A stretch of 64,000 bases of DNA from Pedobacter sp. KBW06 (GTDB lineage: Bacteria > Bacteroidota > Bacteroidia > Sphingobacteriales > Sphingobacteriaceae), in NCBI RefSeq assembly GCF_003852525.1, contig NZ_QAJL01000006.1:311501-375500 (forward strand). The letters are read 5' to 3'. Shown here in pieces: positions 41,173 to 60,700 of the stretch (the first letter of the stretch is position 1; each line of letters opens with the position of its first letter). A model generated the notes under the pieces. The model made no database searches. It was not told the DNA's origin and saw nothing but the letters and a program-made list of their open reading frames with translations. The position numbers and the translations under genes are program-made.

Positions 41173-43470
41173 TTAAGATTTAAAGGACTGATACATGTTC
41201 TCCAGGAGGCTGGCCGACTCCTCCATCATTTTTACCCCGATTTCATCTACATGCCGGTTGCGCCAGCTTTCCAGTGTTGTTCCTTTTACCCACTGGTTAA
41301 AAGCACCAAGTGCCGGACCACAATGGACCTGGAAATTAACCTGCTGATCTTTATTTCCCGCAAGGGAAAGCCGCATGCTGTAGCCAAAGTACCAGCGGAA
41401 CACCAGGGCCATTTTATGCCTTGGATTTTGCTCTGCCTTTTGTATTTCGGAATGTTCCCCTTTATTTTTAAAATAGGTAATGGTTTCTTCCCAGATTTCA
41501 GGAATTGGTTTTTTGAAATAATTCCGTTCCAGCTGCTCTACCGTTTTCTCAGGAATCTCATGCAATGCATTGTATTGTGTATAAAGCGCATATAACTTAT
41601 TTGCCCTTGCAGGAAACAATACTCCTTTTTTAAGCACCTGAACCTTTGAGCCGATTTCAAACATATCCCCGGCTGGTGCATAAGCTGTATCCTGAACATT
41701 GATCTCCTGCAGGAGGTCTTTTACATAATCACTCATATCAGCTTCCACGGTACATTGATTGATCGATCCGGTCAGCACAAAATCTGCCCCCATCACAAAG
41801 GCGCAGGCAATGGCCTGAGGTGTCCCAATCCCTCCTGCAAGGCCAATATTTATCGGTCTCTGGTACTGATATTCCTGTTGAATGTCTGTACGCAGTCTTT
41901 GTATACTCGGTAAAAGCACCAGGGCAACCCCACCATCGGTATGTCCACCTGAGTCTGCTTCCACACAAATGTCATAGCTCATCGGAACAGTTTTCGAAAG
42001 TTCAGCCTGCCCGGCAGTGATCAGTCCTTCACGAAGCAATTTATTGACAATCTTTTCCGGAGCAGGCCGCATAAATTCCTCTGCGACCTCCGGCCGTGAG
42101 ATCTTACCCAATATTTTATGCCTGCAAATGGTCTCCTTATTTTCCCCCTGCTGCAAACCGGATAAACGATAATAGACAAGAGATTCCGTCATCTGCATAT
42201 AAGCAGCGGCTTCAATATGTTTCACCCCTAACCTTAAATAGAGCTTTACCGTTTCCATTTCAAAGGAAGGATCGGTAATGCTGTGCAGTAAATTCAGTCC
42301 GAATGCCTGACCTTCTGTAAGCTCTGTCTGGATATGCCGGATATCCGCTTCTATTTTTTCAAGGGATAATCCGCCGGTTCCAAGGTAGCCCAGCATATTG
42401 GCTTTTCCCATCTTTACCACCAGTTCCCTTGAGGCAATACCCCGGTACATGGCTCCGGTCACATAGGCATATTTAATCTGATAATCTTCCCGGAATAGCT
42501 TACTTCCCAGTTTCATGGGCAGCGTCCTGCCGGATTTTGGCACTGGATTTTCATTTTCTGCTTTCAGCTGTCCATTCTTTACCGCTGTTCCATTTCGTTC
42601 AACGGCAATGGCATTGCTCTGTCCTAAAATTGGACTGCACTTTTCCCGGATCTCATGAACCATTTTAGAAAGAATGCTGCTGCCAATTTCCTGGTAATCA
42701 ATCACCCCTTTTCCCATTAGGAAACGGATGCTGTTGGTCCAGAGCACAGGGCTTGCAATCTGTGTGCTCAATAACCTCGCCGTCTGCTCTTTTTCATAGG
42801 GAATACCCAATGCATTTGAAATTACGGGAACCCCTGGGGCAGAAAATTCAAAGCCCTTTAAAAAAAGCTCAAAATCTGCTGCAGCCGGGGCCATATACCT
42901 GGAATGAAAGGCGGCACTGACCTGTAAAGGGATAATTCTGATTCCTTTACCTTCAAACTCAGCAACTACCTTTTTAATGGCCTCCTGTTTCCCGGCAATG
43001 ACGATTTGCGAAGGGGTATTAAAATTGGCAATATCTATTCCTTCATAATCCGGAGTACTCAGCATTTTTTTCAATTCGGCCATTTCAACGCCAACAACTG
43101 CCGCCATGCCTCCGCCAGAAGCTTCGGCCATCAGTTCTCCCCTCTTCCTGACCAGCTTTAAGCCAGTACTAAAATCAAAGACCCCCGCCGCCAGCAAGGC
43201 ATTGTACTCCCCAAGGCTATGGCCAACAAAGTACGAAGCGGAACAGCTTTCTTTGACCGCAGCATAACCAAAGGCGTTGACCACATATAAAGCCGGCTGC
43301 GTAAACTGGGTTTGCGACAATTGTTTATGCGGATCGGCGACACAAAGTTCCTGCAGGTCATACCCCAAGAGATCTGAAGCCTGCTGTGTCTCAGTTTTGT
43401 AACGGCTAAACAAGTCTTTCCCCATACCTTTATACTGGGATCCCTGACCGGGAAACATAATTGCTTTCAT
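41173..43470 (-). CDS. Trans-acting malonyl-CoA acyltransferase fused to PfaD-like FMN enoylreductase
   Basis: 765 residues in two domains. N-terminal AT (1-300): MFPGQGSQYKGMG, nucleophile Ser85 in GHSLGEY, carboxylate-binding Arg110 in RKRGELM, and His189 in AFHSRYM, all malonyl-type. C-terminal ER (about 315-765): a PfaD/nitronate monooxygenase-like TIM barrel with GYLGTGGLSLEKIEADIR, SGGHTDGG, a GLAGGIGTPQAIACAFVMGADFVLTGS flavin-binding stretch, and an ASxLLENMYQS tail. The AT loads malonyl units on all ACPs of the AT-less PKS; the ER reduces enoyl intermediates in trans. This fusion (PksE/PedC-ER-like) is a hallmark of trans-AT clusters. It overlaps the aminotransferase by ATGA. Confidence 0.93.
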   Translation of the reverse strand: MKAIMFPGQGSQYKGMGKDLFSRYKTETQQASDLLGYDLQELCVADPHKQLSQTQFTQPALYVVNAFGYAAVKESCSASYFVGHSLGEYNALLAAGVFDFSTGLKLVRKRGELMAEASGGGMAAVVGVEMAELKKMLSTPDYEGIDIANFNTPSQIVIAGKQEAIKKVVAEFEGKGIRIIPLQVSAAFHSRYMAPAAADFELFLKGFEFSAPGVPVISNALGIPYEKEQTARLLSTQIASPVLWTNSIRFLMGKGVIDYQEIGSSILSKMVHEIREKCSPILGQSNAIAVERNGTAVKNGQLKAENENPVPKSGRTLPMKLGSKLFREDYQIKYAYVTGAMYRGIASRELVVKMGKANMLGYLGTGGLSLEKIEADIRHIQTELTEGQAFGLNLLHSITDPSFEMETVKLYLRLGVKHIEAAAYMQMTESLVYYRLSGLQQGENKETICRHKILGKISRPEVAEEFMRPAPEKIVNKLLREGLITAGQAELSKTVPMSYDICVEADSGGHTDGGVALVLLPSIQRLRTDIQQEYQYQRPINIGLAGGIGTPQAIACAFVMGADFVLTGSINQCTVEADMSDYVKDLLQEINVQDTAYAPAGDMFEIGSKVQVLKKGVLFPARANKLYALYTQYNALHEIPEKTVEQLERNYFKKPIPEIWEETITYFKNKGEHSEIQKAEQNPRHKMALVFRWYFGYSMRLSLAGNKDQQVNFQVHCGPALGAFNQWVKGTTLESWRNRHVDEIGVKMMEESASLLENMYQSFKS

Positions 43471-44738
43471 AAGTATACCGGCTTTTTATTTCTCATCAAT
43501 TCAACAATACTGCTATTCAGGATTTCCAGACCTTCGTCCAGGCTTTCTGCTGATATCGTAAGCGGCGGAAACAATTTGAGTACCTGATCTTCCGCTCCGC
43601 AGGTTTCAATCACAAGGCCATTTTTAAAACAGGCTTTGGAAACCTCAACAGCCATGGCTTTGTCTTTAAATTCAAGTCCGATCATAAAACCACGCCCTCT
43701 TATACTCAGCTCTCCCGGGTATTCGTCCTTTATTTCCTGAAGAAGACTCACAATGGCTTTAGATTCCCTTTTTACTTTATGGCTGAGCTGATCATCTTTC
43801 CAATATTTTTCAATGGCGAGTGCAGCGGTGATGAATGCATAGTTGTTCCCCCTGAATGTACCGGTATGCTGCCCGGGTTTCCAGGCATCGATTTCCGGCT
43901 TGATTAGCAATAACGACATCGGCAAGCCGCATCCACTAATCGATTTAGATAAGACCACCATATCCGGCTGTATGTCTGCAAATTCAAAAGAGAAGAAATC
44001 ACCGGTCCTGCCGCAGCCACTCTGAATGTCGTCAATGATCATCAGGATCCCATGTCTGCTGGTAATCTCCCGCATATTTCGCAGCCATTGCTGTGTGGCA
44101 ACATTAATTCCACCTTCTCCCTGTATCGTTTCTAAAATGATGGCTGCCGGCTTACTTAAACCACTCCCCTTGTCGCTCAATAATTTATCCAGCAGCACAG
44201 AAGTATCAATGTCCGGCCCAAGATAGCCCGAAAAAGGAAGGAATGTAGTGGATTGCGAGAGGTCGTCTTCAAGCCCCTCCCGGTAATAAGAATTCGCAGT
44301 TAACCTCAATGCACCCTTAGAATGTCCATGGTAGGCGTTCGTAAAAGAAATGATTTGATTTCTCCCTTTCACGATCTGGGCAAGTTTTACAGCTGCCTCC
44401 ACCGCATTCGCACCCGTAGGTCCGGTAAACTGTATTTTATAATCCAGCCCCCTCGGTTTCAGGACATAACGGATAAAATTATCAATAAAACTTTCTTTGG
44501 CAACAGTGGCCATATCCAGCGAATGGACAATTCCATTTCGACTGATGTACCCGATCAGCGCCTCCTTCATGTCCTCGTCATTATGCCCGTAATTTAATGC
44601 ACCGGCTCCTGAGAAAAAGTCAACATACCTGTTATTGGCCTCATCGTATAAATAAGCGCCGGATGAAGTGCTAAAAGTTGCAGGAAAATTCCTGCTGTAA
44701 CTTCTAACCTGTGATTCGTGTTCTTCTATTGTTTTCAA
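43467..44738 (-). CDS. EctB/DABA-type class III aminotransferase (2,4-diaminobutyrate-forming)
   Basis: 423 residues, normal length for the family. It opens with ESQVRSYSRNFPATF and continues VDFFSGAGALNYGHND, the pattern of L-2,4-diaminobutyrate:2-oxoglutarate aminotransferases (EctB/DAT). The PLP lysine is Lys265 in VVLSKSISGCGLP, with IIDDIQSGCGRTG and GPTGANAVEAAVKLA also intact. The predicted reaction is aspartate semialdehyde plus glutamate to 2,4-diaminobutyrate. It lies 4 bases after the NRPS stop and overlaps the AT-ER gene by ATGA. It most likely supplies diaminobutyrate for the second A domain, whose pocket has two acidic residues. Transamination of a carrier-bound aldehyde is the alternative. 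Confidence 0.88.
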   Translation of the reverse strand: MKTIEEHESQVRSYSRNFPATFSTSSGAYLYDEANNRYVDFFSGAGALNYGHNDEDMKEALIGYISRNGIVHSLDMATVAKESFIDNFIRYVLKPRGLDYKIQFTGPTGANAVEAAVKLAQIVKGRNQIISFTNAYHGHSKGALRLTANSYYREGLEDDLSQSTTFLPFSGYLGPDIDTSVLLDKLLSDKGSGLSKPAAIILETIQGEGGINVATQQWLRNMREITSRHGILMIIDDIQSGCGRTGDFFSFEFADIQPDMVVLSKSISGCGLPMSLLLIKPEIDAWKPGQHTGTFRGNNYAFITAALAIEKYWKDDQLSHKVKRESKAIVSLLQEIKDEYPGELSIRGRGFMIGLEFKDKAMAVEVSKACFKNGLVIETCGAEDQVLKLFPPLTISAESLDEGLEILNSSIVELMRNKKPVYL

Positions 44739-44742
44739 AATA

Positions 44743-47700
44743 TTAAGAGGTTAAATAGGGTTTAAATTCTGTTTGGGTTAGGGTAATCCAGCGCCTGCAA
44801 TGTGGCTCCTTTACCATACTAAAATGCGTACCGGTCGCTTTAACAGTCCTGATGTCCTGGTAATATCTGCTCCAGTCCTTATCTCCATCCGGCTTTGCTG
44901 CGCCCTCATGGGCCAGAATGCTGATGACCGGATAGGGCAATTTTTCTTCAGGTTTGTAGCGTATGTTCATGCTGGTGACACAGGTCTGATACAGGCGTTG
45001 TAAATAAGCTGAGGAGATGTCGATGCCTCTTTTTTCCAGCTCGCCCATCAATGCCGCAGGACGATCGTTTTCCCTTGCCTGCAGCAACCCATGTATGAGT
45101 TCTTCCTTTCCGATGATGATCTGGTTACTGATCTGCTCCAGTCCTTTTAAAAAGTCCATTTCGATATCTGCCCGACTAAACCTGTTGTCGAGCAAACCGG
45201 TATATCCGTCAATTAAGAAGACATTGGCAATTTTGAGATCAGCGCTAAACTGAAGCTGTTTCAGCAATTCATAGGCAACCAGACAACCATAGCTATGGGC
45301 AACGAGGTTGATTTCCTGCTGATCAGCGATGCTGCGAATCAGCATCAGCTGTGCTTCGGCGATTTCCGGAATACTGTTGAGCGGCTGTTCATTTTCAAAC
45401 AGACCTTTCATCTGTAATCCATAGACATTTCCATTTCCGGGTAACGCCCCGGCAAGCTCAAAATAACCATCAGCAATGCCTGGCATACCAGGGATCACAA
45501 ATGAAACAATGGCGTTGTCGTCTCCTTTTCTTAGCTCAATCAAGTGTTTATCAATTGCAGAATTCCTGCTCAATACGTTTCCATTGTCGACCTCCGAGTG
45601 GCTCAATACCCTTGAAAACATTGATATGGTTGGATATCTGAACAAAAACTGCAATTCCAAGTGATCCAATTCAAATGCTTTCTTAATCATACCGTTCAAC
45701 CGGACACTCAGCAAAGAGTGGCCTCCCAATGCAAAGAAATCATCATGGATCCCAATCTCAGCAACTTCCTTTTTTAAAACCTTCGCCCAGATCTCAAGCA
45801 ACCTCGCTTCGGTCTCATTCCTTGCTCCTTCATAAAGCCCGCAATTTACTGCCGCTGCTTCCGCCCGACCGGCAAGATCTTTCCTGTCTATTTTTCCATT
45901 TGCAGTGAGTGGTAATTTTTCAAGCCTCACAAAAGCTGCAGGAATCATGTAGGCCGGCAACCTGTTCTCCAGATCTGTTTTCAATGCAGACGGTTCCAGA
46001 TGTTCCGGGCTGACGAAATAAGCGATCAGATATTTATCTCCTGATTTGTTCTCCCTTACCACAACAGCCGCAGCCGTTACCGAAGGGTTTCCCTGCAGGG
46101 TATTTTCAATCTCGCCCAGTTCAATTCTGTATCCACGGATTTTCACCTGGTCATCCTGCCTTCCCAGACATTCGATATTTCCATCCGGCAGCCAGCGTCC
46201 GATATCTCCGGTTCTGTATAGGCGTTTTCTCCGGCTCAGCTCCTCCTTATGGATCGCCTGCTCCTCATCCGGGACCGAAGTCCGGAACTTTTCACTGACT
46301 TCGCTGAAAAACGGATCATCCATAAATTTCTGCTCCGTCAACGCTGTATTGTTCAGGTATCCCCGGCCCACGCCAATTCCCGCAACACAGATTTCACCGG
46401 GTACGCCCACCGGGCAAAGTGCCATGTGTTCATCAACAATATATATGCGCATGTTCTGAACCGGGAAACCAATCGGAATGGTTTGGGTATAAGGCATGGT
46501 GTCGGTAAAGAAGAGGGTCACATCATCCGCAGCCTCAGCCGGTCCGTATGCATTCACTACTTTTATTCCCGGAAAACTCGCAAGCCAGCGCTTGAGAAGA
46601 CTGGAGTGAAAAGTCTCTCCGGTTACCAAAAGGTATTTGAGATTGGTGAAATGAATCCCTCCATTTTCTTCAATAATGTCAAGCAAACTATTTAAATAAG
46701 CAGGTACCAGCTGTAATATCGACACCTCACAGTCATTTACCTTACGCAGAAACACTGCCGGATCAAGGATTTCTTCCTTACCGAGGACCAGTGTGGTACC
46801 ACCTGTCATCAAAGCGGTCAGGGATTGCCATACTGATATGTCAAATGAAAAAGATGCATTTTGAACGATCACACTCTCCGACGTAAGTTCCAGCTGACTG
46901 ATCATGGCATACAAGTGGTTTAACATCCCCTCATGTGTGATCATCGTTCCTTTTGGCCGCCCTGTTGAGCCTGAAGTAAAGATCACATAGGCAAGGCTTT
47001 CCGGAGCATTGAGTTTTTCCGGATTTTCTTCGCTGCTGCTGTCTGCGACCAAAGCAAACAAATCCAGCTCCTGCTGATCAACCAGCACTTTACACTGGCT
47101 CTGCTCTACCATATACCTGATCCGGTCTTCCGGATATTCAAAATCAATCGGGATATAAGCCGCACCGGATTTTAAAACCGCCAGTATCGCCACAATTACC
47201 GCTTCACTGCGTTTGAGCTTGATCCCGATAAAATCGTCTGGTTTAATCTGATAAGCATTCCTTAAATAATTTGCCAGCTGATTTGAACGTTCATTTAAGG
47301 TTTTATAAGTCAGTTGCCTTCCTTCAAATGCCAGGGCGATACGATCCGGGGTCTTTAGTGCCTGTTCTTCAAAGAGGTCGACAAATGTCCTGCCCTCCGG
47401 ATAAGGCTCAAAAGTATCGTTCCATTCCACAAGCAATTGCTTTCGTTCTGCCGAAGTCAGCAAATCAATAGACGATAACAATCCTTCCGGATGTGCCAGC
47501 ACCTGATCTATTACGTGCTCCAGGGAGTTAAAAAATCTTTCTGCGGTATCACCGTCGTAATAAAATTCGTCGTATTTGATGCCTATGGTAAAGACTTCTG
47601 AAACTTTGCAATTGAACGCAAGGGGATAATGGTCTTCTTCCAGGGCCTCCAGGTTTTTAAATGAAGAAGACAGGTCTGTGATCGCTGATTCATTTACAGG

Positions 47701-50700
47701 GAAATTTTCATAGGCATACAAAACCTGAAATAGCTGCTCATTATTACTCAACTGTGCATACTGATGAATCAAAGATAAAGGGGTATGCTCATATTCCAGT
47801 TTCTCCTGAAGTGCGTTCTGGTTCCGGTGCAAAAAGTCAACTGCACTTTCATCGGCATCGATGTTAAAATACCCTGGCGTGGTATTGATGAGCAAGCCAA
47901 CCATATCCGACAAATCCATTCCCGGCAATGTCCGGCCTGAGCTGACATCTCCCAGCAGTATATTTTTTTCGCCGGAAAGCTTACACAACATCAGGGCCAG
48001 ACAACTTTGGATCAAGCTGTTCAAAGTGATGTGTTCAGTCCTTGAAAATATCTTTAACCGTCTGGTTAAGTCTTCAGAAACGAGAAAAGACAATTCCTTA
48101 AAGGACTGCCGGCTTTGGGGCATTTTGCTTTCCGACAAGCCAGACAATGGTAAAACGGCCCTGGTGCTAATGTCGGACAAATACCCGGACCAGAAATGTT
48201 CCGCTTTACCCGAATCCATTTGCTGAAGCGCCTCAATGTATTTGTAATAAGGAAGACTGGCAGTTAAAGCAAGCTGCTTTCCATTCTTTACCGCAATATA
48301 GGCAGACAATAATGCTCCGGAGAAGATGCCATTCGACCAACCGTCTAGTATAATGTGATGACGGGTTAAAATCAGTTTACTTTCCTGCTCCGAGTATTTT
48401 ACCACTGCGACTTTCAGCAGCTGGTCCTTGCTTAAATCCCAGCGCTGTGACCGGATGTCCTTCAGCAGTACCTCCAGCTGCTGGTTCCGCTCTGCGGGAT
48501 CATTGCCGCTTAAAGTATATTTCTCAATTTCTATCGTTCTTGCTTTGTATACCACCTGAACCGGAACAGGCATTCCTTCATGATAAAATGAGGTTCTTAA
48601 AACGTCATATTCATTGGCCACTTTCTCCAGGGCCGCCTCAAGCGCATTCAGGTCGATCTCTTCCGATAAAGTCAGGATCATCTGACTTTTGTAGATCATC
48701 GAATCAGGAGATAACATGGTTTCAAACAAGATGCCTTCCTGTAAAGCAGAAAGCGGATAGATGTGCAAGATCTCCTGCTGCCGCTCTTTGCTATGCGATT
48801 CGGCTAAGAACCCGTCCAGTTCTATCTGATCCCAGTTTAAGAGCGGAAAATCTGAAGGAGTAAAACCAAAATTGGAAGGACTTGCACAATGTTCGATGAC
48901 AGCAGTCAGCTGCTGTTCAAATACAGCAGCAAATTGTTCCAGCATCAATCCATTTTTCAATGCGTAATCTGTCTTAAACTCGAAATTCAAACCTTCTTTG
49001 TTTAGCATTCCGTTTACGAGGATATCCTCGCTCCTGTTCTCCGTTGCCACCATATTTCCAAAAGACTCTTCTGCAACCGTCAATAGCCCGGCAGCTTCAG
49101 GAGGCAAATTAAGATCCCCGAGGTAATTGAACATCAACTCCGGAACAGCTGCATCACGCAATCCCTGCGCTTCTGTTAAGTATTTCAGGATGCCATAACC
49201 AATGCCTTTATCCGGAACTGCCCTCAATATCGTTTTTACCGTTTTGATATACGATGGCAGATCTTTAGTTACAGGAGCTTCAATCAATACCGGAAAGATG
49301 CTCGTAAACCAACCCGTTGTGCGACTGACATCTATATCTTCAAATAACTCCTCCCTCCCATGTCCTTCCATGTACACCGGCATCAATTCTCTTCCGGACC
49401 ATTCGCGATAAGACAAATACAACGCAGAGATGATGAGGTCATTGATTTGAGTATGATAGGCCTGATTGCATACGGTGATGAGTTGCTGATACAGCGAAGT
49501 GTTGATCCTGGCAAATATCCGATTCGCTTTTTCAAGCGGTTTTTGAGTATCAACCAGTTTAGGTAAAGACTGGCTGGCAGCGGCCTGTTTTAGCCAATAG
49601 CTTTGCTCTTCCTTAATTTCCTCTTCAAAAGCATACCTTGAAAGTGATGCCGACCAATATTGATAGGAAGTAGTCCTGGCTGGCAAAACCGCATCCGCTG
49701 TTTTCAATAGCATCAAAAGATCGGAGATCAAAATCCGCCAGGAAACACCATCAATCACCAGATGGTGAATGCTGATCAGCAACCTGTGACTGGATTGCTC
49801 TTCAGCGAGTAACAGATGTCCTACGCGGATGAGCGGCCCTTCTTCAATATCGAGACTTGCATGTAAACCCCCGCTCACATTTTCGATAGCGGTATTCAGC
49901 ACGTCAGGGCTAACAGCGCTCAGGTCATAACTTTTCAGAAAGTCCGCTGGCAGTGCGTCTGCACTGAATTGCTGATGCCAGGTCTCTCCCTCTTTTCTAA
50001 AACGAAGCTGAAAAGCATCGTGCTGTGCACAGATCTTCGAAAAAGCGATTTTTAATTGTTCAGTACTGATGCGCTTATCTATTTCTAAAAGTACCGCATG
50101 ATTGAAATGACTGAGCTTCGGATGATTCAGCGAAAAATAATAATGCTGAACAGGAGTTAGTCCGACTGCTCCGGTTAATACCGCCGGCTCTTCATGGATC
50201 CGTTTCAGCAGGCTGTGGGGAGCAAGTTTTTCTATCGTCTGGTAATCAAAAAGCTGTCTGGTTGTCAAATGAATGTTCATTTGATTGGCCTTGCTGATCA
50301 CCTGTATGCTTTTTATAGAATCTCCTCCCAGTTCAAAGAAATTGTCGGAAACACCGATCTTATCCAGTCCAAGGACCTCTTTCCAAATTCTGACGAGATT
50401 TTTCTCCACATCATTACCCGGAGCCCGGTATTCCTGGTCTCCTCCATACCTGATTTCCTGTTGTTCCAGCACTTTGCGGTTCACCTTCCCATTCAGGGTC
50501 AGCGGAATTTGTTCGATCGGAATAAACAGGGATGGGATCATATAATCCGGCAGGGACTTCTGCAGGAAAATTTTCAATGCAGCAGGCTGCAGGTTTTCCG
50601 TCTGAACCGGTACATAATAGGCCAGCAATTGTTTACCTTCCCCCTGCTCCTTTACAATCACTACCGCATTTTGTATGGATTGATGTGCAGACAAAGCATT

Positions 50701-53700
50701 TTCTATTTCTCCAAGTTCAATCCGGTGTCCTCTTAATTTGATCTGATTGTCAATTCTGCCCAGGCATTCAATCTCTCCGTCAGGTAGCCACCTCGCCAGA
50801 TCTCCGGTACGGTATAACAGCTTACCGCTGTCAAAGGGGTTGTCGATAAACTTTTCGTCGTTTAATGATTTCCTGTTCAGGTAACCAGCCGTCAGCCCAT
50901 CACCTCCGATGCACAACTCGCCCGTCACCCCAATTGGCACCAGTTCATTTTCCGGACTGAGGATATAAATTTGTGTATTGGCAATAGGTCCGCCGATCGT
51001 AATCTGCTCTTCAGGCCCCAGCGCTTTTACGGTAGACCAGATGGTGGTTTCTGTAGGTCCATACATGTTGAAAATCCGGCTCTGCCCAGATTTAAAAATA
51101 TCGGCAGCCAGAGCAGGGCTTAAAGCTTCCCCGCCAATCAGTAACTTTTTCAGGCGCCCTATTGCCATTTGACCACTTTGATGAGTGATCAATTCCTGAG
51201 CAAATGAAGGGGTACATTGCAGGTGGGTAACGCCTTGTTGCCTGATATTTTCTTCAGGAAGCCAGGCTTTGTTCAACTTCTTTTGTAAAAAGCGCTCATG
51301 CAGTGCCGATTGTCTCAGCAGTTGCTGAAGTTTAACCAGATTTGGCAAATTAGACATGATGGTATCGTTGTCAATACCGTAATCCACCAGACAGGCAATT
51401 TCGTCGACCCCGATTTCAGTAAATTCCCAAACGCGGGACATACAGGTTTCAGGGGTTCCGAATAAACCACTCGTTTGGAAATACCGTTCAAAACCCATTT
51501 CAACAATGGCTTCCAAATCTTTGTCCATGTCCAGGCCGGCCTGTTTTGCCAAAGGTTTTATCAGATCCACAGAATGACGTAAATAGTTTTTGAAGGGCTC
51601 CCGGACCACCTCTTTGGTCAGCTGCAGGTCTTCAGAAACAAAGCTGTGCAGCATTAAAGCCACTTTACCATGATTTGCATCGAAACCATGCTCCGTTAAC
51701 GAACGGCGATACAGTTTAATTTTCTCGCCCAGCTCTTCTTTATTCTGACCCAGCAGGTGGGTTAAAAGGTTAGCACCTATAGAACCCGCATAAATGAAAG
51801 TCTCCGGATTCCCCGCCGCAGTGATCCATACCGGGAGAGATTGCTGTACAGGTTTAGGGTGGATTTGCACCTTAAAATCGTTTCCTGCACCATTTTTACG
51901 AATATATGTTGCGCCCTCCCATAAATCCTTCAGTTCCAACAGTTTCTCCCGCATCTTCTGATGACGTTGCTCATAGTCTCCGGGTGAAAAAATAAAATCA
52001 TTTGGATGCCAGCCTGAAGCAAAGGACAACTCCACACGGCCTTCAGAAAGGTGATCAACCATTGACCATTCTTCTGCAACCCTCACCGGATCATGTAAAG
52101 GAAGTACCACGCTTCCGGCACGAATCTTTATTTTACTGGTCAATACGGCCACAGCAGCAGCGGCGACGGATGGATTTGGAAACTGATCGCCAAAAGTATG
52201 AAAATGACGTTCAGGAATCCATACCCCGGATAAGCCATGCTGATCAGCAAACTGTGCCGCATTGCGTAACAATTCATATTTATTACAATGGGTAACCTCT
52301 TCCTGTGCCGCAAAAAAGAACAGACTGAAATCCATATTTGCCTTCTCTGTTTTGTAAACCGGCCGGTCGGGCTGAATCACTACTTTACTTCCCTTGCAGA
52401 TCGTCCAGAATAATTCCAGCACAGAAATGTCGAAGCTGATGCTGGTTACCGCCAGCCAGACTTCCTGACTTTCTTCATTTCCAACCTTCAGGTCCATCCC
52501 TTTAAAGAAATTCATCACATTCCGATGCCTTACGCCAACGCCCTTTGGTTTACCTGTAGAGCCTGAAGTATAGATCACATAGGCAAGAGATTCCGTGCTT
52601 TGTTTTGCTGCAGGGCGATCCAGGATAGGGTCTGTTAAATGACCGGTCTCTTGTACCATCAGTTCATTTTCCCAGGTATTTTCGTCCAGACACAAAGGCA
52701 AATAGCTGCCTCCGGCTGGAAAAAGTTCCAGCACTTCTGCTGATGCAAGTAAAAAACCTGCACCTGAATCATCCAGAATATATTGTAAACGGTCTATCGG
52801 ATAGCTGAAATCCAATGGCACGTAAGCGCTGCCGGCTTTCAAAATTCCCAGCAAACCAATCATCATCTCCAGTGAACGGTCCACACATATTGCCACCAGG
52901 GCATTGTCCTTTAACCCTTTAGTTCTGAGGTAGCGGGCCAGCTGTTCGGCTTTCCGGTTCAGCTCAAAATAGCTGAGTTCCTCTCCTTCATATACCAGGG
53001 CAATGCTTTCCGGAGTTTGTAAAACCTGTTTTTCAAACAATTCATGAACGAGTACCTCATTCAGATAAGCAACAGTGGTATTGTTCCATTCCGAAAATAA
53101 CTGCTGGCTTTCTGCCTCAGGTACAATGTCATAGTCTTTAATTTCCTTTTTACAATCTTCCTGAACTTCGGTCAGCAGTTTTTTGAAATAGCCCAGATGG
53201 CGTTTGATCGTCAGCTCATGGAATAAATGCCTGTTATATTTTAAATTGATCCGTAGTTCTTTTCTGAAGTCGCAGACCTCTATCAGGTAATCTTCTTCGC
53301 TCTCCTGGAACAAATCAGTCGGCATTTCTGCCTTTTCATAAATTCCTTCTTTTTTGTCAAGAATTGCATCAAAGAAATTCTGATACAGGTAACCCGCACG
53401 AAGTACAGACCCGTTTTCATGTGTCTGCCCCAAGCCAAATTCCGAAATCAGTTTTGGAAAAGGATAGGCAGCGTGATCAATACCATGAACAAACTGAAGT
53501 TTTACTTCGTTTACAAAATCATTAAAGAAAGTCTTAGCTGAAACCTGGTTCCTGACGATCATCATGTTGATGAAATAGCCAATCCCCTGTTCATGTTCCT
53601 TCTTCGGACGCCCGGCAGTTGGGGTGGTCAGAATGATATCTTCATCGCCGGTTATTTTGCTCAGAAATACATTGTATATGCTCAACAGCAATACCGACAA

Positions 53701-54744
53701 ATTGACTTTCAGCGCTCTGGCCAGGATCTTTAATCTGTCCAATGCCGCTGCATCCAGAATGAGCGTTTCTGAAGCCATTTCTCTGGAGTCCTGATCTTTT
53801 GAAAACAGCTGATCAAAAGGCAGGGACAATACAGGCAATGGTCCGCTTAGCTTCTCCTTCCAGAACAAATGATTTTCATGTGCTTTTTCGCTGTTCATGT
53901 AAGCTTGTTCCCAGTTCACATAGTCAAAAAAAGCAAGGTCTTCCGCTTGATCGCTGCATTTCTCTCCTTTCATCAGGTATTCTATTTTTTCTAGAAATGA
54001 TCTGACAAAAAAGATACTCGATGTTCCATCAAACACAATGTGATGAATCACAAAGAGCAGAGATGTGCTTTGTTTAACAGGATCAACGCTGGCATATAGC
54101 CTCAACAGACAATCATTTTTAAGGTCGAATGGTTTTCGCTGTAATGACAACCAGCCTTCCTGATGTGTTTCCTGGTTTCCATCCCTGCTGTATACCAAAG
54201 GGACGACTGCCTTTCCGTTTTTACTTTGATAAAGCTCAGCGCTTTCCTGATCGTTGTAAAAGTTCATCCTTAAAATGGGATGTGCAGTCAACATCAGTGT
54301 TAATGCTTCCGAAAGAATAGATTCCGGGACATCCAGGTTTAGTGTAAAAGCAACAGGAATATTATAGGCAGTATGGCCGGGATCAAAGTGCTGGATAAAA
54401 AACAAACCTTTTTGCCCCTCCGATAAAGGATACCGAATTTCCGGCCCGGTGGCCTCAACTTGCCCGGATTCTTCGCTTGCTGCCTTTGCCTTTTGCAGCA
54501 ATGCACTTTCCAGCAGGTTAAATAAGGCCCCGAAATCATCGGCGATAAACATCTGGCCCATTTTGATATCCAGATCGAAAGTTTCATTAAACTCCCTCAC
54601 AAACCTGATCATTTGTACCGAATCAAAATCATAGTCGAAAGGCAGTAACGAGCGGTCAATTTCTCCCAGTTCCATATGGAAGATCTCCGACACAATCGAA
54701 GATAATTGTGTCTTATATTGCGCTATTGTATCTTTTTCCATCAT
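44743..54744 (-). CDS. Non-ribosomal peptide synthetase: ACP-C-A(LLM)-PCP-E-C-A-PCP-TE
   Basis: 3333 residues. Domains by residue: ACP 1-90 (Ser42 in FDSV); C 103-530 (HHIVFDG 234-240); A1 545-1427 (TSGSTGKPKG 726-735, FDIS 771-774, a luciferase-like monooxygenase insert about 804-1145, GPTETT 1229-1234, NGK Lys1420); PCP1 (Ser1476, GGDS); E 1526-1955 (HHLVIDG, EGHGRE, NYLGDL); C2 1990-2430 (HHIILDG); A2 2455-2960 (TSGSTGRPKG, GPAEAADD); PCP2 (Ser3010, GGHS); TE 3065-3333 (Ser3151 in AHSYG, Asp3179, His3307). Pocket code A1 is D-I-L-Q-L-G-M-I-W-K, which is Gly. A2 is D-I-W-Q-L-T-A-D-D-K, with an acidic pair that suggests a basic residue. It receives the polyketide on its own ACP, adds two residues and releases the product. 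It starts 22 bases after the PKS stop. Confidence 0.95.
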   Translation of the reverse strand: MMEKDTIAQYKTQLSSIVSEIFHMELGEIDRSLLPFDYDFDSVQMIRFVREFNETFDLDIKMGQMFIADDFGALFNLLESALLQKAKAASEESGQVEATGPEIRYPLSEGQKGLFFIQHFDPGHTAYNIPVAFTLNLDVPESILSEALTLMLTAHPILRMNFYNDQESAELYQSKNGKAVVPLVYSRDGNQETHQEGWLSLQRKPFDLKNDCLLRLYASVDPVKQSTSLLFVIHHIVFDGTSSIFFVRSFLEKIEYLMKGEKCSDQAEDLAFFDYVNWEQAYMNSEKAHENHLFWKEKLSGPLPVLSLPFDQLFSKDQDSREMASETLILDAAALDRLKILARALKVNLSVLLLSIYNVFLSKITGDEDIILTTPTAGRPKKEHEQGIGYFINMMIVRNQVSAKTFFNDFVNEVKLQFVHGIDHAAYPFPKLISEFGLGQTHENGSVLRAGYLYQNFFDAILDKKEGIYEKAEMPTDLFQESEEDYLIEVCDFRKELRINLKYNRHLFHELTIKRHLGYFKKLLTEVQEDCKKEIKDYDIVPEAESQQLFSEWNNTTVAYLNEVLVHELFEKQVLQTPESIALVYEGEELSYFELNRKAEQLARYLRTKGLKDNALVAICVDRSLEMMIGLLGILKAGSAYVPLDFSYPIDRLQYILDDSGAGFLLASAEVLELFPAGGSYLPLCLDENTWENELMVQETGHLTDPILDRPAAKQSTESLAYVIYTSGSTGKPKGVGVRHRNVMNFFKGMDLKVGNEESQEVWLAVTSISFDISVLELFWTICKGSKVVIQPDRPVYKTEKANMDFSLFFFAAQEEVTHCNKYELLRNAAQFADQHGLSGVWIPERHFHTFGDQFPNPSVAAAAVAVLTSKIKIRAGSVVLPLHDPVRVAEEWSMVDHLSEGRVELSFASGWHPNDFIFSPGDYEQRHQKMREKLLELKDLWEGATYIRKNGAGNDFKVQIHPKPVQQSLPVWITAAGNPETFIYAGSIGANLLTHLLGQNKEELGEKIKLYRRSLTEHGFDANHGKVALMLHSFVSEDLQLTKEVVREPFKNYLRHSVDLIKPLAKQAGLDMDKDLEAIVEMGFERYFQTSGLFGTPETCMSRVWEFTEIGVDEIACLVDYGIDNDTIMSNLPNLVKLQQLLRQSALHERFLQKKLNKAWLPEENIRQQGVTHLQCTPSFAQELITHQSGQMAIGRLKKLLIGGEALSPALAADIFKSGQSRIFNMYGPTETTIWSTVKALGPEEQITIGGPIANTQIYILSPENELVPIGVTGELCIGGDGLTAGYLNRKSLNDEKFIDNPFDSGKLLYRTGDLARWLPDGEIECLGRIDNQIKLRGHRIELGEIENALSAHQSIQNAVVIVKEQGEGKQLLAYYVPVQTENLQPAALKIFLQKSLPDYMIPSLFIPIEQIPLTLNGKVNRKVLEQQEIRYGGDQEYRAPGNDVEKNLVRIWKEVLGLDKIGVSDNFFELGGDSIKSIQVISKANQMNIHLTTRQLFDYQTIEKLAPHSLLKRIHEEPAVLTGAVGLTPVQHYYFSLNHPKLSHFNHAVLLEIDKRISTEQLKIAFSKICAQHDAFQLRFRKEGETWHQQFSADALPADFLKSYDLSAVSPDVLNTAIENVSGGLHASLDIEEGPLIRVGHLLLAEEQSSHRLLISIHHLVIDGVSWRILISDLLMLLKTADAVLPARTTSYQYWSASLSRYAFEEEIKEEQSYWLKQAAASQSLPKLVDTQKPLEKANRIFARINTSLYQQLITVCNQAYHTQINDLIISALYLSYREWSGRELMPVYMEGHGREELFEDIDVSRTTGWFTSIFPVLIEAPVTKDLPSYIKTVKTILRAVPDKGIGYGILKYLTEAQGLRDAAVPELMFNYLGDLNLPPEAAGLLTVAEESFGNMVATENRSEDILVNGMLNKEGLNFEFKTDYALKNGLMLEQFAAVFEQQLTAVIEHCASPSNFGFTPSDFPLLNWDQIELDGFLAESHSKERQQEILHIYPLSALQEGILFETMLSPDSMIYKSQMILTLSEEIDLNALEAALEKVANEYDVLRTSFYHEGMPVPVQVVYKARTIEIEKYTLSGNDPAERNQQLEVLLKDIRSQRWDLSKDQLLKVAVVKYSEQESKLILTRHHIILDGWSNGIFSGALLSAYIAVKNGKQLALTASLPYYKYIEALQQMDSGKAEHFWSGYLSDISTRAVLPLSGLSESKMPQSRQSFKELSFLVSEDLTRRLKIFSRTEHITLNSLIQSCLALMLCKLSGEKNILLGDVSSGRTLPGMDLSDMVGLLINTTPGYFNIDADESAVDFLHRNQNALQEKLEYEHTPLSLIHQYAQLSNNEQLFQVLYAYENFPVNESAITDLSSSFKNLEALEEDHYPLAFNCKVSEVFTIGIKYDEFYYDGDTAERFFNSLEHVIDQVLAHPEGLLSSIDLLTSAERKQLLVEWNDTFEPYPEGRTFVDLFEEQALKTPDRIALAFEGRQLTYKTLNERSNQLANYLRNAYQIKPDDFIGIKLKRSEAVIVAILAVLKSGAAYIPIDFEYPEDRIRYMVEQSQCKVLVDQQELDLFALVADSSSEENPEKLNAPESLAYVIFTSGSTGRPKGTMITHEGMLNHLYAMISQLELTSESVIVQNASFSFDISVWQSLTALMTGGTTLVLGKEEILDPAVFLRKVNDCEVSILQLVPAYLNSLLDIIEENGGIHFTNLKYLLVTGETFHSSLLKRWLASFPGIKVVNAYGPAEAADDVTLFFTDTMPYTQTIPIGFPVQNMRIYIVDEHMALCPVGVPGEICVAGIGVGRGYLNNTALTEQKFMDDPFFSEVSEKFRTSVPDEEQAIHKEELSRRKRLYRTGDIGRWLPDGNIECLGRQDDQVKIRGYRIELGEIENTLQGNPSVTAAAVVVRENKSGDKYLIAYFVSPEHLEPSALKTDLENRLPAYMIPAAFVRLEKLPLTANGKIDRKDLAGRAEAAAVNCGLYEGARNETEARLLEIWAKVLKKEVAEIGIHDDFFALGGHSLLSVRLNGMIKKAFELDHLELQFLFRYPTISMFSRVLSHSEVDNGNVLSRNSAIDKHLIELRKGDDNAIVSFVIPGMPGIADGYFELAGALPGNGNVYGLQMKGLFENEQPLNSIPEIAEAQLMLIRSIADQQEINLVAHSYGCLVAYELLKQLQFSADLKIANVFLIDGYTGLLDNRFSRADIEMDFLKGLEQISNQIIIGKEELIHGLLQARENDRPAALMGELEKRGIDISSAYLQRLYQTCVTSMNIRYKPEEKLPYPVISILAHEGAAKPDGDKDWSRYYQDIRTVKATGTHFSMVKEPHCRRWITLTQTEFKPYLTS
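51310..52335 (-). other. Luciferase-like monooxygenase domain inserted in NRPS A domain 1
   Basis: Residues ~804-1145 of the NRPS lie between A4 (FDIS) and the part of A1 that restarts at GVTHLQCTPS. They form a complete bacterial luciferase-like flavin monooxygenase: MDFSLFFFAA start, GVWIPERHFHTFGDQFPNPS, IKIRAGSVVLPLHDPVRVAEEW, ELSFASGWHPNDF, LPVWITAAGNPETF. This is the natural-product LLM subfamily. Similar insertions in glycine A domains of myxothiazol MtaG and melithiazol MelG oxidise the glycine alpha carbon. Confidence 0.88.
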
Positions 54745-54766: not shown

Positions 54767-57700
54767 TTATACATTTTCATTATTGGCTGCTACGGCAGGA
54801 TCAACAACCGGATTTTTGTATTCCTCCAGGATAACGTGGGCGTTCATTCCACCAACCGCGTAACTGTTCAACCCGGCCCTTCTCGGATAAACACCATTGC
54901 TCCAGTAGCCTGATTCAGATTTCAGAATCATAGAATGCCCCGGATCAAGTTCCTTGTTCACAATATCGAGTCCTGAGATTCCGGGTATGGTTTTATTCCG
55001 GAATGCCATGATCACCTTAATGATGGATACGATTCCTGAAGCGAGTTCCGGATGCCCTACTGTCGGCTTCACACTTCCAATGTTCCACTTCTTTTCGGGA
55101 TTGGAGCTCAACTCCTTATAAGCTTCATTGATGGCTCCCAGCTCAATGGCATCAGCCATCCGGTTGGCTACACCATGGGCTTCGATATAATCAATGGTAT
55201 CAGAATTCACGCCTGCCTTACGGATACAGGCCTTGATCACTTCCTTCATTCCTTTTGCACTCGGCGTTTCCAGTGAAAAGCCCCGACCACCATGATAAAC
55301 AGCGCTTCCCCTCACCAGGGCCAGAATTTTGTCGCCATCTAACCTGGCTTTTTTCAGTGGCTTAATGATCAAAACTCCTGCACCTTCACTTTTAACAAAA
55401 CCGGTCCCTTCATCACCAAAACTTCTGGTCACCTGTCCGTTGCTCAGCAAACCGGTTAACTTACCCAGCGCATTTTCCTGAAGTGCAAGTCTGGAAATCA
55501 CATTGACACCGCCAACGATTGCCTGCTCACACTCACCGGTATAAATACTTTGAATCGCGCGGTGTAAGGCGACATATCCGCTCGTACAAGCCGTATCAAC
55601 AACCTCGCTTGGTCCTTTCAGGTTCAGCTGGAAGGAAACCTTGTTCGGGATGATGTAAGAGATGTCTTTATCAACACTTATGTTTCCCAATTCATCTGCT
55701 TCCGGAAGCAATTGCTGTGATCCGATAAATACACCTGTTCGTTTAGCTGAGAGCGCTTTCAGCGCAATTCCACTCTCCTCAATCGCCTGCCCCAGAACAC
55801 CAAATATCAATTTCTGCTGGCGTCCCATCTCCGAAAACTCTTCCGGCGTCAGGCCAACCTTGCGGATATGTGATTCCTGAAAAACCTCGGCAATCGCACC
55901 ATAATGAAATGAAGTACCTTTTGATTTAACTTCAACCGTTCCGTCCATTACATTTCCTGACATGATCTGCTCCCAAAGCTGTTCTGAATCCCCGGCACCG
56001 GAGAAAACACCTCCAAGTGCGACAATCGCAATGGCATCGTCGTCTTCCTCTGCAACTTCAGCCTGGTCTTCCTCCTCAGCCGAAGGAAGCGTTTTTTTCG
56101 AAATCAGATCATCCCCATACGATCCATGGATATATTCACTCAACTCTTTTATACTGGGATAATTGAAAATATCGGTCGACTTTAACAGGATGTTCAAGGC
56201 TTCATTGATGTTTTTTGTCAGGGTGGTTCCCAGGATGGAATCAAATCCGTATTCCGAAAATGGCCTGTCGTCTTCAAAAGCTTCTACCGGTAGTTTCACT
56301 GTTTCCGATGCAATACGGATCAGTTCTTCCGATAAACTATCCAGCCCCTGGCTCCTTAGTTTTGAGGTTTCCTGCTTTGCAGGCGCCTGCCCACTTGAAG
56401 ACCGGGCTGCAATGGATTCCTTCGGCTGCGAGGATGCTGTGATCAATTCCACTGCGCGGGGGATCGTAATTACGCCATCGCTCGCGGCAATGATGATCTG
56501 CTGTGGTAATGCAAGGCCTTCAGGATATATTTTAGTTTGTTCAAAACCCTGTTCAGCCAGAACTGCGGACCAACCCGCTCCCGACAAACCCGGACCGCCT
56601 TCCATACGGACTTCAGGATCCTCATACAACCACCAGCCATCTAATAGTCCAAAAGTGAGGGTGCTGTAAAGGTCTGTACGGGCGATTTCATTCAGCATCA
56701 GCAAACCTCCTTTTTTCAGTACCGCCTTGATATTGCGTAGTGCAATGCTGATATTTTTAGTGGCATGTACCACATTGGTTCCCAGAACAACATCAAACGA
56801 ACCTGTTGCAATCCCCTGAACTGCCGGCGATTCCTCAATATCAAATAAAGCTGTCTGAAGGTAAGGTGTCTGAGATTTGTAGTTCCGTTCTGCATGCAAC
56901 AGGAATGTCCTGGAAATATCGGTATACACATAGACGATCGAAGCTTCATATCCTGCTAACTTCCTGAACAACATCTCACTGGTTCCTCCGGTTCCGGCAC
57001 CGATTTCCATGATCCGAAGCTTATCCCCATTTTCTTTCTTGCCGATGGCGGCGATGATACTCTCTGCAACCTGCGTAGTTAATAATTCATTAAAGTAATC
57101 TGCGGTATGGTTACCGGTATATATTCCCTTTACATAAGCAAGGCTTCCATCCGGAAAAATAACATCCACCGCCCTTACTTTTCCTGTAAATATTTCTTTC
57201 AGTAAAAAGAGGCAACGCAATAACAAATCCAGGTGTGCTTTATAAACCGGTTGTTCCGCTGAAAGTTGCTCGATTTCGAAGTTCAGGTCAAAATCCGCCA
57301 GTTCATCTTTTATACCTGCCGATATTGAGATTCCATCTTTATCTATTTTGATGTGCGTCATTTCTTGCAGCCAGTCCAACATCGACTGGAATAACCGTGC
57401 GTATTTATCGCTGATTCCCAGTATGGTCCTCAGCTTGTTAACCAACAGCCTGCGATCCTCCTGCTGTAGCGGCCGGTTCGTTTCTTTCTGAACTTCCGCT
57501 TTGAAATTAAGTCCTTCAAGGCCCAGTTCCTGCAACACCTGCAAAAAGCTTTTGACACAAATCTGAAACATTCTGGATTCGTAGGGCTCTGCATGCCGGT
57601 ATTCAGGGACCTGAACTTCCTGTAACTGAAGATCCGTAAGCTCAGCTTTTATAATTTGCTGATTAGCCAACAGGCTATTAATTTTTGAACTGCTCTGTTT

Positions 57701-60700
57701 TGACAACTTCAATACCACTGCCTGTTCCTGATCATTAGCGATCAAAGTTTCCAGCACCTGCATTCCTTCAGCGATAGAAATGCTCTCTATACCTAGTATC
57801 AGCATCCGCTGCCGGTATTCTGCCGAGCTGACTACCCCAACTTCCCCCCAATACCCCCAGTTGATCACATGCGTCCGGATGCCCAGGCGTTGGGAAACCT
57901 GCCTCGCATAACTGTCTTTGTACATACAACCGGATGAATAATTCCCCTGTCCCGGGGCATTCCATTGGGATTGGGCCGAAGAATAAAAACAGATAAAATC
58001 CAGATTTTCTCCTTTAAAAGCATTTACAAGGTGATGGCTTGCAGTGGCTTTGGGGTCAAAAGAACTGCTGAAATCTGCTTCGGTCATGTTCGTCATGAGT
58101 TGATCATTCAATACCAATGCTGAATGGAAAAGGCCATGAATCAGCTTATGATTTTCTTTAATCTCCCGGAATGCAGCATCCACACTTTCCTTTTTGGTCG
58201 CATCACATTGGATATATACCGGACGCGGACCTTTTTTGGAAATCTCCTCCTGCGAAGCAGAGATCTTATCGTTAGCTGCGCTTCTGCCCAGCCAGATGAC
58301 TGTTGCACCGTATTTTTCAGCCAGATAAGCCGTAGTTACCTTTCCGATTCCTCCTGCTCCACCAAGAATGACATAAGTCCCGCCTTTCCGGAACCTGCTT
58401 TCTATATCTGGATTCAGCTGCAAAGGCGACAATACCCGGCGGTACAGATGACCACTACGGTAAGCCTGAAATACGTCCTGAACATCGTAGGGTGTACTGA
58501 ATAAACGTCTGAAACCATCCGGTTCCAGCACTTCGGTTTCCAGGTCCGTGACCCGTACCTGCCATTTTTCATATTCCCTGGCCAATGAGCCCAGTAATCC
58601 CGGAATCCCGCTTCCGCTTACCGATACCTGGTCACCGGAAACCACTTTTTGCGTATTGCAGGTAAACAGTTCCAGATAAAGTTCATTTTCCGGATCTGCG
58701 AGATCTAACAGTGTTTTAATGCTTCTGAACAGGTGTAATTCGTGCTGCCCATACTTTACATTGGTTTCGGCCTCCAGACCACCATCTAGGGTATCCGATA
58801 CAGATTTTCCGGAATCTGCTCCGATGAGCTCCCTATCCAGTCCGGCAGTAAAATAAATATGATCACCTTTATGGAGCGGGCCTTTTAAATCAGAAAGACT
58901 TGCCAAGATCTCCAGCTTTGCACCTTCAGATTCCAGCCAGGCAGCTAAACCTGCGGCAAACAGCCCCGGCGAGGCACCAGTAATGATCAAATAACGACCA
59001 GAACGGCCCTTTATCTCTTCCAATCCGGGATCTTTTAGCGCGCTCAGAGATTTTCGTTCCCATAATGGCATATATAAGATATCTGCAGAAAATCCGGAAC
59101 CTGTAACCGCGCCATTCATTGATTTAACCTGCTGATCCGGAATCCAATAACGTTCACGTGCAAAAGGATAAGTCGGCAAACTGATCTTTTGCGGCTTTTT
59201 GCCAGGGTAAAGCAACAGCCAGTCTATACCAATGCCTTTTACCCATAGCTCTGCCAATGCCGCAACTTCTCCTGCGGATATCGCTGCATGAATATAAGCT
59301 TCACCTGCTTTGCCATCCAGCACAAAACTGCCTGAATCTCTTTTGATATTACCGGTATAAAAATCACCGGGTTTTTCCTCCAAATAAGCATTCAGTTTCG
59401 CGCTCAGCTCATGGAGATCGCCTGCTGTCAACGCCAGCCTTTCTTCCATGGCTTCTCTGCCTGTCTGTAAAGTATAAGCGATGGAATGCAATTGTTCATC
59501 CGGATGGGATAAAAGGTGATCTGCCAGGTTTTTCACCTGGTCTTTCAATCTTGCTACATTCCTTGCCGACAACAATATGATTACCGGGCGGTTTCCATTA
59601 TCGTAAACCTGCTTTTCCGACCGGTATTCTTCCAGAATAAGGTGTGCATTACTGCCACCAAAACCGAAACTGCTTACCCCGGAAATTCTGGCTTTATGAT
59701 TGTCAGCAGCCCATTCAGTGGTATCTTTTTGCAGGCTAAATGGTGTCCCATCCAGCTGCAGATAGGCATTTGGCGTTTTTAACTGCGGATTTCCAGGTAA
59801 GATCTTATGTTTTAAAGACAATAGTACTTTAACCACACCAGCTATACCGGCAGCAGCCTCCAGATGACCAATATTTGTTTTTACACTGCCAATACTGCAA
59901 TGTGGAACAGCCGGAAAATCCAGTCCCCGTTCTTTATAAAGCGCTTTAAAAGCGAGTTTGAGTGCCTCTGTTTCGATCGGATCTCCCAGAGGAGTCCCGG
60001 TTCCGTGTGCTTCTATGTAACTGACATCCCGCGGATCTATATTTGCCGAACGATAGGCCTTCATTAACAACTCTTTCTGCGCCGCAGGATTAGGGGATGT
60101 TAACGAATTGGCTTTTCCTCCATGGTTTACAGAAGTTCCGCGGATTACAGCATAAATACGATCCCCATCTGCCTCTGCCTGTTTTAATGATTTCAAAACC
60201 AGCATGCCCACTCCTTCACCCCTCACATAGCCATTTGCAGCCTGATCAAAGGTTTTGCATCTCCCATCTTCGCTCAGCATTCCAGCCTGGCTTAGAGGTA
60301 ACAGTGTTTCCGGAATGATGTCTAAACTTCCGCCACCTGCAATGACAATCCTGCAACTCCCCGAACGAATGTTTTCTACCGCCCTGTGAATCGCAATGAG
60401 TGAACTAGAACAAGCCGTATCTACCGGTTCACTCGGCCCTGTTAAATTAAACAGGTAAGATATGCGGTTGGTCAGGATGGAATGGGAAAGTCCGGTAATG
60501 GACTGTGCCTCCTGACTTAAACCATGACGCTGAACCAACGAAGAATAATCATTAAAATAGGAACCAATGAAAACACCGGTATCAGATCCGGAAAGGTCTT
60601 TTACATTAATTCCTGCATCTTCCAGGGCATGATAAACGGTTTCAATTGCGATCCGGTGCTGAGGGTCCATCAATTCTGCCTCCATCGGTGATATATTGAA

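Follow-up and report, generated by a model that had tools for sequence, protein, structure and literature searches.

The stretch analysed here (hereafter the window) comprises 64,000 nucleotides of Pedobacter sp. KBW06 (contig NZ_QAJL01000006.1, positions 311,501 to 375,500), and its minus strand carries a nonribosomal peptide synthetase (NRPS) gene in which an epimerisation (E) domain follows a glycine-type module with an inserted flavin-dependent luciferase-like monooxygenase (LLM). This arrangement had been pointed out in a first-pass annotation of the sequence, and it was confirmed by domain searches, by its motifs and by an orthologous protein in a second genome. The domains were assigned with Pfam and NCBIfam profiles, which found three Condensation-superfamily, AMP-binding, Bac_luciferase, three PP-binding and Thioesterase domains in the frame, and their order was derived from hidden Markov models (HMMs) built for the analysis. 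This order was C-A(LLM)-PCP-E-C-A-PCP-TE (C, condensation; A, adenylation; PCP, peptidyl carrier protein; TE, thioesterase), with an extra carrier domain (ACP, acyl carrier protein) at the N-terminus. The C domains were typed as LCL or DCL, for L- or D-configured donors, and the features of the gene are the following:

44743 to 54744, minus strand: NRPS of 3333 amino acids (aa) in one open frame, ACP-C1-A1(LLM)-PCP1-E-C2-A2-PCP2-TE
54460 to 54744, minus strand: N-terminal carrier domain (ACP) with an FDS motif, one of the three PP-binding stretches of the protein, which would receive the polyketide
53101 to 54432, minus strand: condensation domain C1, on the LCL side of the classifier (242 against 159 bits)
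52336 to 53079, minus strand: A1 before the insert (motifs A1 to A4)
51301 to 52335, minus strand: inserted LLM dependent on flavin mononucleotide (FMN), aa 804-1148, TIGR04020
50440 to 51300, minus strand: A1 after the insert (motifs A5 to A10), code DILQLGMIWK
50209 to 50424, minus strand: PCP1, GGDSI
48910 to 50172, minus strand: E domain, aa 1525-1945, with HHLVIDG (His1660/1661), EGHGRE from Glu1793, and NYLGD
47431 to 48765, minus strand: C2, DCL-type condensation domain (309 against 214 bits)
45865 to 47382, minus strand: A2, code DIWQLTADDK, probably for 2,4-diaminobutyrate
45610 to 45852, minus strand: PCP2
44746 to 45507, minus strand: TE (PF00975), release

The same protein, with 87-100% identity per domain, is encoded in the single-contig genome G986, from another species of the window's genus; therefore, an assembly artefact was excluded. 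The glycine module had been described as internal, and E-C2-A2-PCP-TE indeed lies downstream of it, with a C2 of the type that expects a D-configured donor; the terminal position followed by TE that marks release of the MtaG type was not found. MtaG and MelG, from myxothiazol and melithiazol synthesis, share with the window module the glycine A domain and the monooxygenase insert at a4-a5, but they are terminal, their hydroxyglycine is cleaved to an amide, as the first-pass annotation had noted, and no E domain is mentioned in their treatment in PMC10204066.

The LLM lies between FDIS (A4) and NMYGPTE (A5) of A1, which is the insertion site of glycine monooxygenase (MOX) domains of the MtaG type. 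It scored 469 bits against TIGR04020 (cut-off 244). Among 75 other inserted LLMs, 64 columns are at least 95% conserved, and the window LLM retains 62 of these. The nearest solved structure is PDB 6ket, named PuwE (1.4e-106). The PuwE monooxygenase of puwainaphycin synthesis has been proposed to help in making a 3-amino-2-hydroxy acyl chain and is alike in this proposed role, but it differs in its beta-amino fatty acyl substrate and in its place between polyketide synthase (PKS) and NRPS modules (PMC4219810). The A1 code obtained by alignment after excision of the insert, with the tenth residue K assumed, was DILQLGMIWK, the same as had been read by eye, and an identical code is given for four glycine-activating A domains with MOX (PMC12283262). 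Moreover, 66 of the 70 A domains found to bear an inserted LLM read DI[LV]Q.G..WK, the remaining four being unreadable, and MOx domains within glycine A domains have been reported for corallorazine-like clusters (PMC11342130). The inserted LLM should convert glycine to alpha-hydroxyglycine, a chiral unit.

A full E domain behind a PCP of the GGDS form had also been described (HHLVIDG, EGHGRE and NYLGDL), and motifs, database matches and a fold model agreed with this description. Every E motif block was found, namely HHLVIDG, EGHGRE, GWFTS and NYLGD, the last where NYLGQ is commoner, and the checked residues are His1660/1661, Asp1665, Glu1793 and Asn1873 of the protein. All 10 Protein Data Bank (PDB) sequences matched at <=1e-10 belong to E-containing synthetases (BacC, TycA, TycB, PvdL and GrsA), with E-values from 1.5e-68 to 3.8e-61. 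An AlphaFold2 model based on 27 aligned E domains (predicted local distance difference test 85.7) was placed by Foldseek nearest to TycB3-E (template modelling score, TM, 0.89); ranks 1-13 were all entries containing an E domain, and C-domain and related entries, among the 50 rows listed, came after rank 13 with TM <=0.77, a ranking that identifies an E fold distinct from that of C domains. The flanks were canonical, with the GGDS-type PCP before and the DCL C domain after, and L/D interconversion is predicted for this domain from its intact motifs.

The recurrence of this arrangement was surveyed in loci of the best 80 of at least 580 relatives in genome contigs. These loci contain 84 LLM domains, 70 of them inserted in an A domain, and what followed the 70 modules was the end of the frame (52), a C domain (8), an E domain (2), a TE (1) or a C domain without a detected PCP (4), no PCP being seen in the other 3; internal Gly-LLM modules are therefore frequent and E is rare. 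The open reading frame (ORF) next to the 52 frame-ending modules starts with a ketosynthase (KS) in 18 cases and with a C domain in 4, the other 30 showing neither within the limits used. In the KS cases (L043, L044, L047, L055, L058, L060, L062, L076, L077, L083, L088, L092, L098, L107, L111, L112, L114 and L119), the unit derived from hydroxyglycine may therefore undergo polyketide extension. The two modules followed by E were those of L048 (Rudaea sp.) and L067 (a Bacteroidetes metagenome-assembled genome), and a third case outside the window's genus, G851 (L151), a Rudaea relative, came from 299 genomes of Rudaea's order, seven of which, Rudaea included, matched TIGR04020 at 1e-90. Five of 145 genomes of the window's genus matched it at 1e-100: the E architecture was present in the window genome (G000) and G986, C came next in G061 and G897, and G173 stops after the PCP. 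Three of 395 genomes sampled from the phylum matched at 1e-90, and the two besides the window genome had no E in the stretches examined (L130-L132, L153, L154). In total, five Gly-LLM-E loci were found (window, G986, L048, L151 and L067), and the catalytic motifs of E were intact in all of them. An extra E in L045 was rejected, as it sits at the end of the upstream protein, and the LLM module there terminates in a tail that, judged by eye, resembles a reductase. Separately, the myxobacterial loci L078, L090, L095 and L104 carry an LLM-inserted A domain of unreadable code, with no PCP detected, followed by C-A-PCP-E, and the E domains of these loci match EGHGRE and not HHxxxDG by pattern.

The classifier used for C domains consisted of two HMMs, and it assigned 43 of 47 held-out LCL domains and, with one locus left out at a time, 16 of 16 DCL domains correctly. 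The C domain following Gly-LLM-E was DCL in 5/5 loci (299 against 210 bits in G986; in the next ORF in L067). After an LLM module without E, the C domain of the same frame was LCL in 14/14, comprising nine clean cases (L050, L056, L057, L059, L071, L080, L099, L103 and L128) and five set apart, with the LLM outside the A domain (L065) or with an unreadable A code and no PCP seen (L078, L090, L095 and L104). The C domains starting the next ORF after Gly-LLM without E (L053 twice, L070 and L118) were likewise LCL, so an LCL domain comes next in 13/13 clean modules (nine in the same frame and four in the next ORF). A DCL domain after E would be expected from canonical NRPS logic if the residue is handled as D-like.

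E domains behind plain glycine modules were used as controls. Module 2 of LgrA, which we take to introduce the glycine at position 2 of linear gramicidin, is like the window module in that glycine is followed by a GGDS-type PCP and E, but it has no LLM and the catalytic residues of its E are lost. With the second A domain of LgrA as query against 398 genomes of the class of Paenibacillus plantiphilus (locus L059), nine genomes matched. Among them, L180, which matches the query at 100% identity, is taken as LgrA, and L181 is a close homolog with the same two A codes; the E domain of L180 (frame aa 1814-2231) reads HQLVVDE and EKDGRE and has no NYLG, and that of L181 (frame aa 1837-2254) carries the different lesions HHLVVDD, SGRGRE and HYSDD. 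L059 contains, besides a Gly-LLM module, a module with a Gly code that lacks an LLM (L059:3-4034); its PCP is of the GGDS form, and what remains of the E domain behind it scores 16 bits and reads HQWAADH, with no EGHGR. Catalytic residues were lost in these three E domains behind plain glycine. The first-pass annotation had suggested that the window arrangement would be an unusual use of an E domain, which needs qualification: E after glycine is not unique, as LgrA shows, but the LgrA domain has lost its catalytic residues and that of the window is intact.

Selection was compared through the ratio of nonsynonymous to synonymous divergence (dN/dS). Between the window and G986, with dS of 0.26-0.56 by domain, dN/dS was 0.043 for LLM, 0.076 for TE, 0.083 for A2, 0.089 for C2, 0.107 for C1 and 0.161 for E, the last at a dS of 0.42 with every motif retained. 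For Rudaea against G851 the values were 0.209 (E) and 0.150 (LLM), with 0.07 (112 codons only), 0.38, 0.27, 0.17 and 0.18 for five C domains. In five myxobacterial comparisons of non-Gly modules, E ranged from 0.27 to 0.35 and C from 0.17 to 0.36; by pattern, seven of the nine E domains used miss HHxxxDG and an eighth (L056) misses EGHGRE. Four of the seven were aligned, and these show no variation in the His-His and Asp columns. Intact LgrA-like pairs gave 0.18-0.22 for E and 0.20-0.21 for C.

The best explanation of the locus, in which we place slightly better than even confidence, is a chain-extension module that oxidises its residue and then epimerises it; no reading that gives each intact part a role is simpler. 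A1 would load glycine onto PCP1 and C1 would couple this glycine with the polyketide. Hydroxylation of the alpha-carbon by the inserted FMN monooxygenase would then give an N-acyl hemiaminal stereocentre not brought by the amino acid. E would invert or equilibrate this centre to the D-like (R) form, abstracting the C-alpha hydrogen with the usual His/Glu pair, and the DCL-type C2 would take the D-like donor and couple it to the probable diaminobutyrate, with release of the product by TE. The comparisons establish the domain order, the codes, the intact catalytic motifs, the type of C2 and the recurrence in other genomes. From these we infer that hydroxylation precedes E, that E acts on hydroxyglycine, and that the R configuration is produced and retained in the product.

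Retention of hydroxyglycine by an internal module, with its configuration set or equilibrated by E, had been suggested before, and the comparison favours that suggestion, short of proof, although internal retention as such has a precedent. In solanimycin B an alpha-hydroxyglycine is retained that has been attributed to a SolF module with a glycine A domain and a flavin monooxygenase (FMO), and module 4 of SolF resembles the window module in being internal, with the hydroxyglycine kept and the chain extended; it differs in having the FMO at a8-a9, not a4-a5, and in the absence of E from the domain list of the cluster figure (PMC10204066). In some solanimycin-type clusters SolF lacks the monooxygenase domain (PMC9765074). 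Sky39 of skyllamycin synthesis is said to yield S-hydroxyglycine, as was proposed for EpcG of epoxinnamide; these give a configured alpha-hydroxyglycine in a nonribosomal peptide, but they are standalone enzymes and not A-domain inserts (PMC9321520). No description of a Gly-MOX module with E was recognised in searches of an open-access library; in one paper that they brought up, the LLM is encoded by a gene of its own and the E domain belongs to a leucine module (PMC12144821). The Cahn-Ingold-Prelog assignment worked out here makes S the L-like and R the D-like form of hydroxyglycine. With confidence falling just short of even, a recurring module type is put forward, in which a flavoenzyme would make the stereocentre on the carrier from achiral glycine, E would turn it into (R)-alpha-hydroxyglycine and a DCL domain would select it, the opposite of the (S) form of skyllamycin-type hydroxylases. 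The pattern suggests that the handedness of the added oxygen is deliberately set.

Several observations weigh against the oxidise-then-epimerise module. The window E is the most divergent of its set: of 57 columns with at least 92% conservation across 26 other E domains it retains 47, the lowest count among the 31 rows compared. The catalytic His, Asp and Glu are not among the residues that differ. No E residues were common to the three Gly-LLM-E lineages beyond chance in a random-triple test, and shared residues were rejected as a marker of a hydroxyglycine substrate (2 positions, a number reached by 88 of 267 random triples, which average 1.4). L182-L187, which have the LgrA A2 code and another A1 code, keep intact E motifs, as does L188, with a related A2 code; if any of them load glycine, an intact E would not require a chiral substrate. 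As these loci are known here from sequence alone, the plain-glycine control is suggestive and not clean. The dead LgrA E pair has a dN/dS of 0.242 (C 0.125), which is also below 1, and dN/dS was dropped as decisive proof of E function; it shows constraint and not catalysis, and the intact motifs are therefore the stronger argument. Solanimycin A skips the hydroxylation step (PMC10204066). Finally, the case is built by comparing genomes.

The main rival, which we consider unlikely but still a serious contender, is that E is an idle relic: an A-LLM unit would have replaced an ordinary A domain in C-A-PCP-E, leaving an E that is either undecayed or a scaffold passing the PCP to C2, and the LLM would set the configuration. 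The DCL domain does not separate this from the oxidise-then-epimerise reading, since an inherited E-C pair would give the same pattern. A-domain exchange would produce the gains or losses of E, at least two, that starred branches force among Gly-LLM modules in both the LLM and E trees. In the LLM tree (quick method) a starred group of nine rows contains both the window and the Rudaea pair, though not as sisters, and L067 falls outside it; in the E tree, which has long branches, the window joins L067 with weak support (87/81), apart from the Rudaea pair. A single gain of E without loss was accordingly unsupported; two changes may mean that E was gained twice, or gained once and lost once. Exchange is apparent one module upstream between the close relatives Rudaea and G851 (L048 and L151; aa 1614-2124 of the L048 frame), in which the A halves are 53% and 74% identical, the flanking C 95% and the PCP 90%. 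LgrA itself maintains a dead E scaffold behind glycine, and the E/C ratio of dN/dS in the window pair (1.5-1.8) is at the top of the range of non-Gly E domains (0.8-1.7) and near that of the dead pair (1.9). Against idleness stand the intact E motifs in all five loci, as opposed to the lesions of the three E domains behind plain glycine, and the retention of all motifs in the window and G986 despite their divergence.

It is improbable that the hydroxyglycine is only transient. In that case cleavage, for which E might serve as the base, would yield glyoxylyl-PCP and a polyketide amide and leave a product without residue 1. Such cleavage after hydroxylation is reported for MtaG and MelG, which have an a4-a5 insert like the window module, but solanimycin B retains its hydroxyglycine (PMC10204066), and here a complete C2-A2-PCP-TE under purifying selection (dN/dS 0.08-0.12) is present in the same protein, with a likely precursor gene adjoining. 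More improbable still, A1 might load a chiral amino acid for which E makes the D-form, codes being predictions, an idea opposed by the near-uniform code of LLM-inserted A domains and by its identity with the published Gly/MOX domains (PMC12283262).

If the oxidise-then-epimerise module operates as proposed, an epimerase would act on a hemiaminal carbon made by the assembly line itself, and it would be seen how such lines control a labile stereocentre. A rule for product prediction would also follow, by which Gly-LLM with E and DCL gives D-like (R) hydroxyglycine and Gly-LLM with LCL gives the L-like (S) form. Moreover, the comparison of LgrA with the window module makes it testable whether E decays when its substrate is achiral.

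The NRPS gene is surrounded by other genes on the same strand:

54767 to 64000, minus strand: trans-acyltransferase (trans-AT) PKS, upstream of the NRPS gene and cut by the window edge
43467 to 44738, minus strand: EctB-type diaminobutyrate--2-oxoglutarate transaminase (TIGR02407, 618 bits, cut-off 552), possible precursor supply
41173 to 43470, minus strand: trans-AT fused to a PfaD-type enoyl reductase
40331 to 41140, minus strand: Cupin_8/JmjC-like protein, possible tailoring hydroxylase
39369 to 40367, minus strand: second acyltransferase or acyl hydrolase
38575 to 39324, minus strand: phosphopantetheinyl transferase

In G986, frames of similar size lie in the same order downstream of the NRPS, as compared by size and order, and the PKS ortholog there is a single 14010-aa frame containing 11 KS domains. 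This PKS (L162:2349-11348) opens with an AprA-MT2-like methyltransferase domain (PF23525), which hints at a branched methylated starter unit. The papers listed on trans-AT PKSs of Pedobacter contained nothing specific, and in a plasmid search 6 of 2870 matching records span 80% or more of the query. DIWQLTADDK, the A2 code, differs at one position from DIWELTADDK, which occurs four times among the loci of the other large NRPS encoded in this genome; because of this near-match and the adjoining EctB gene, residue 2 is suggested to be diaminobutyrate. That other very large NRPS (contig C1:166001-219000, L124-L126) has nine full E domains, as placed in the E tree, and the four DIWELTADDK codes, which are diaminobutyrate-like.

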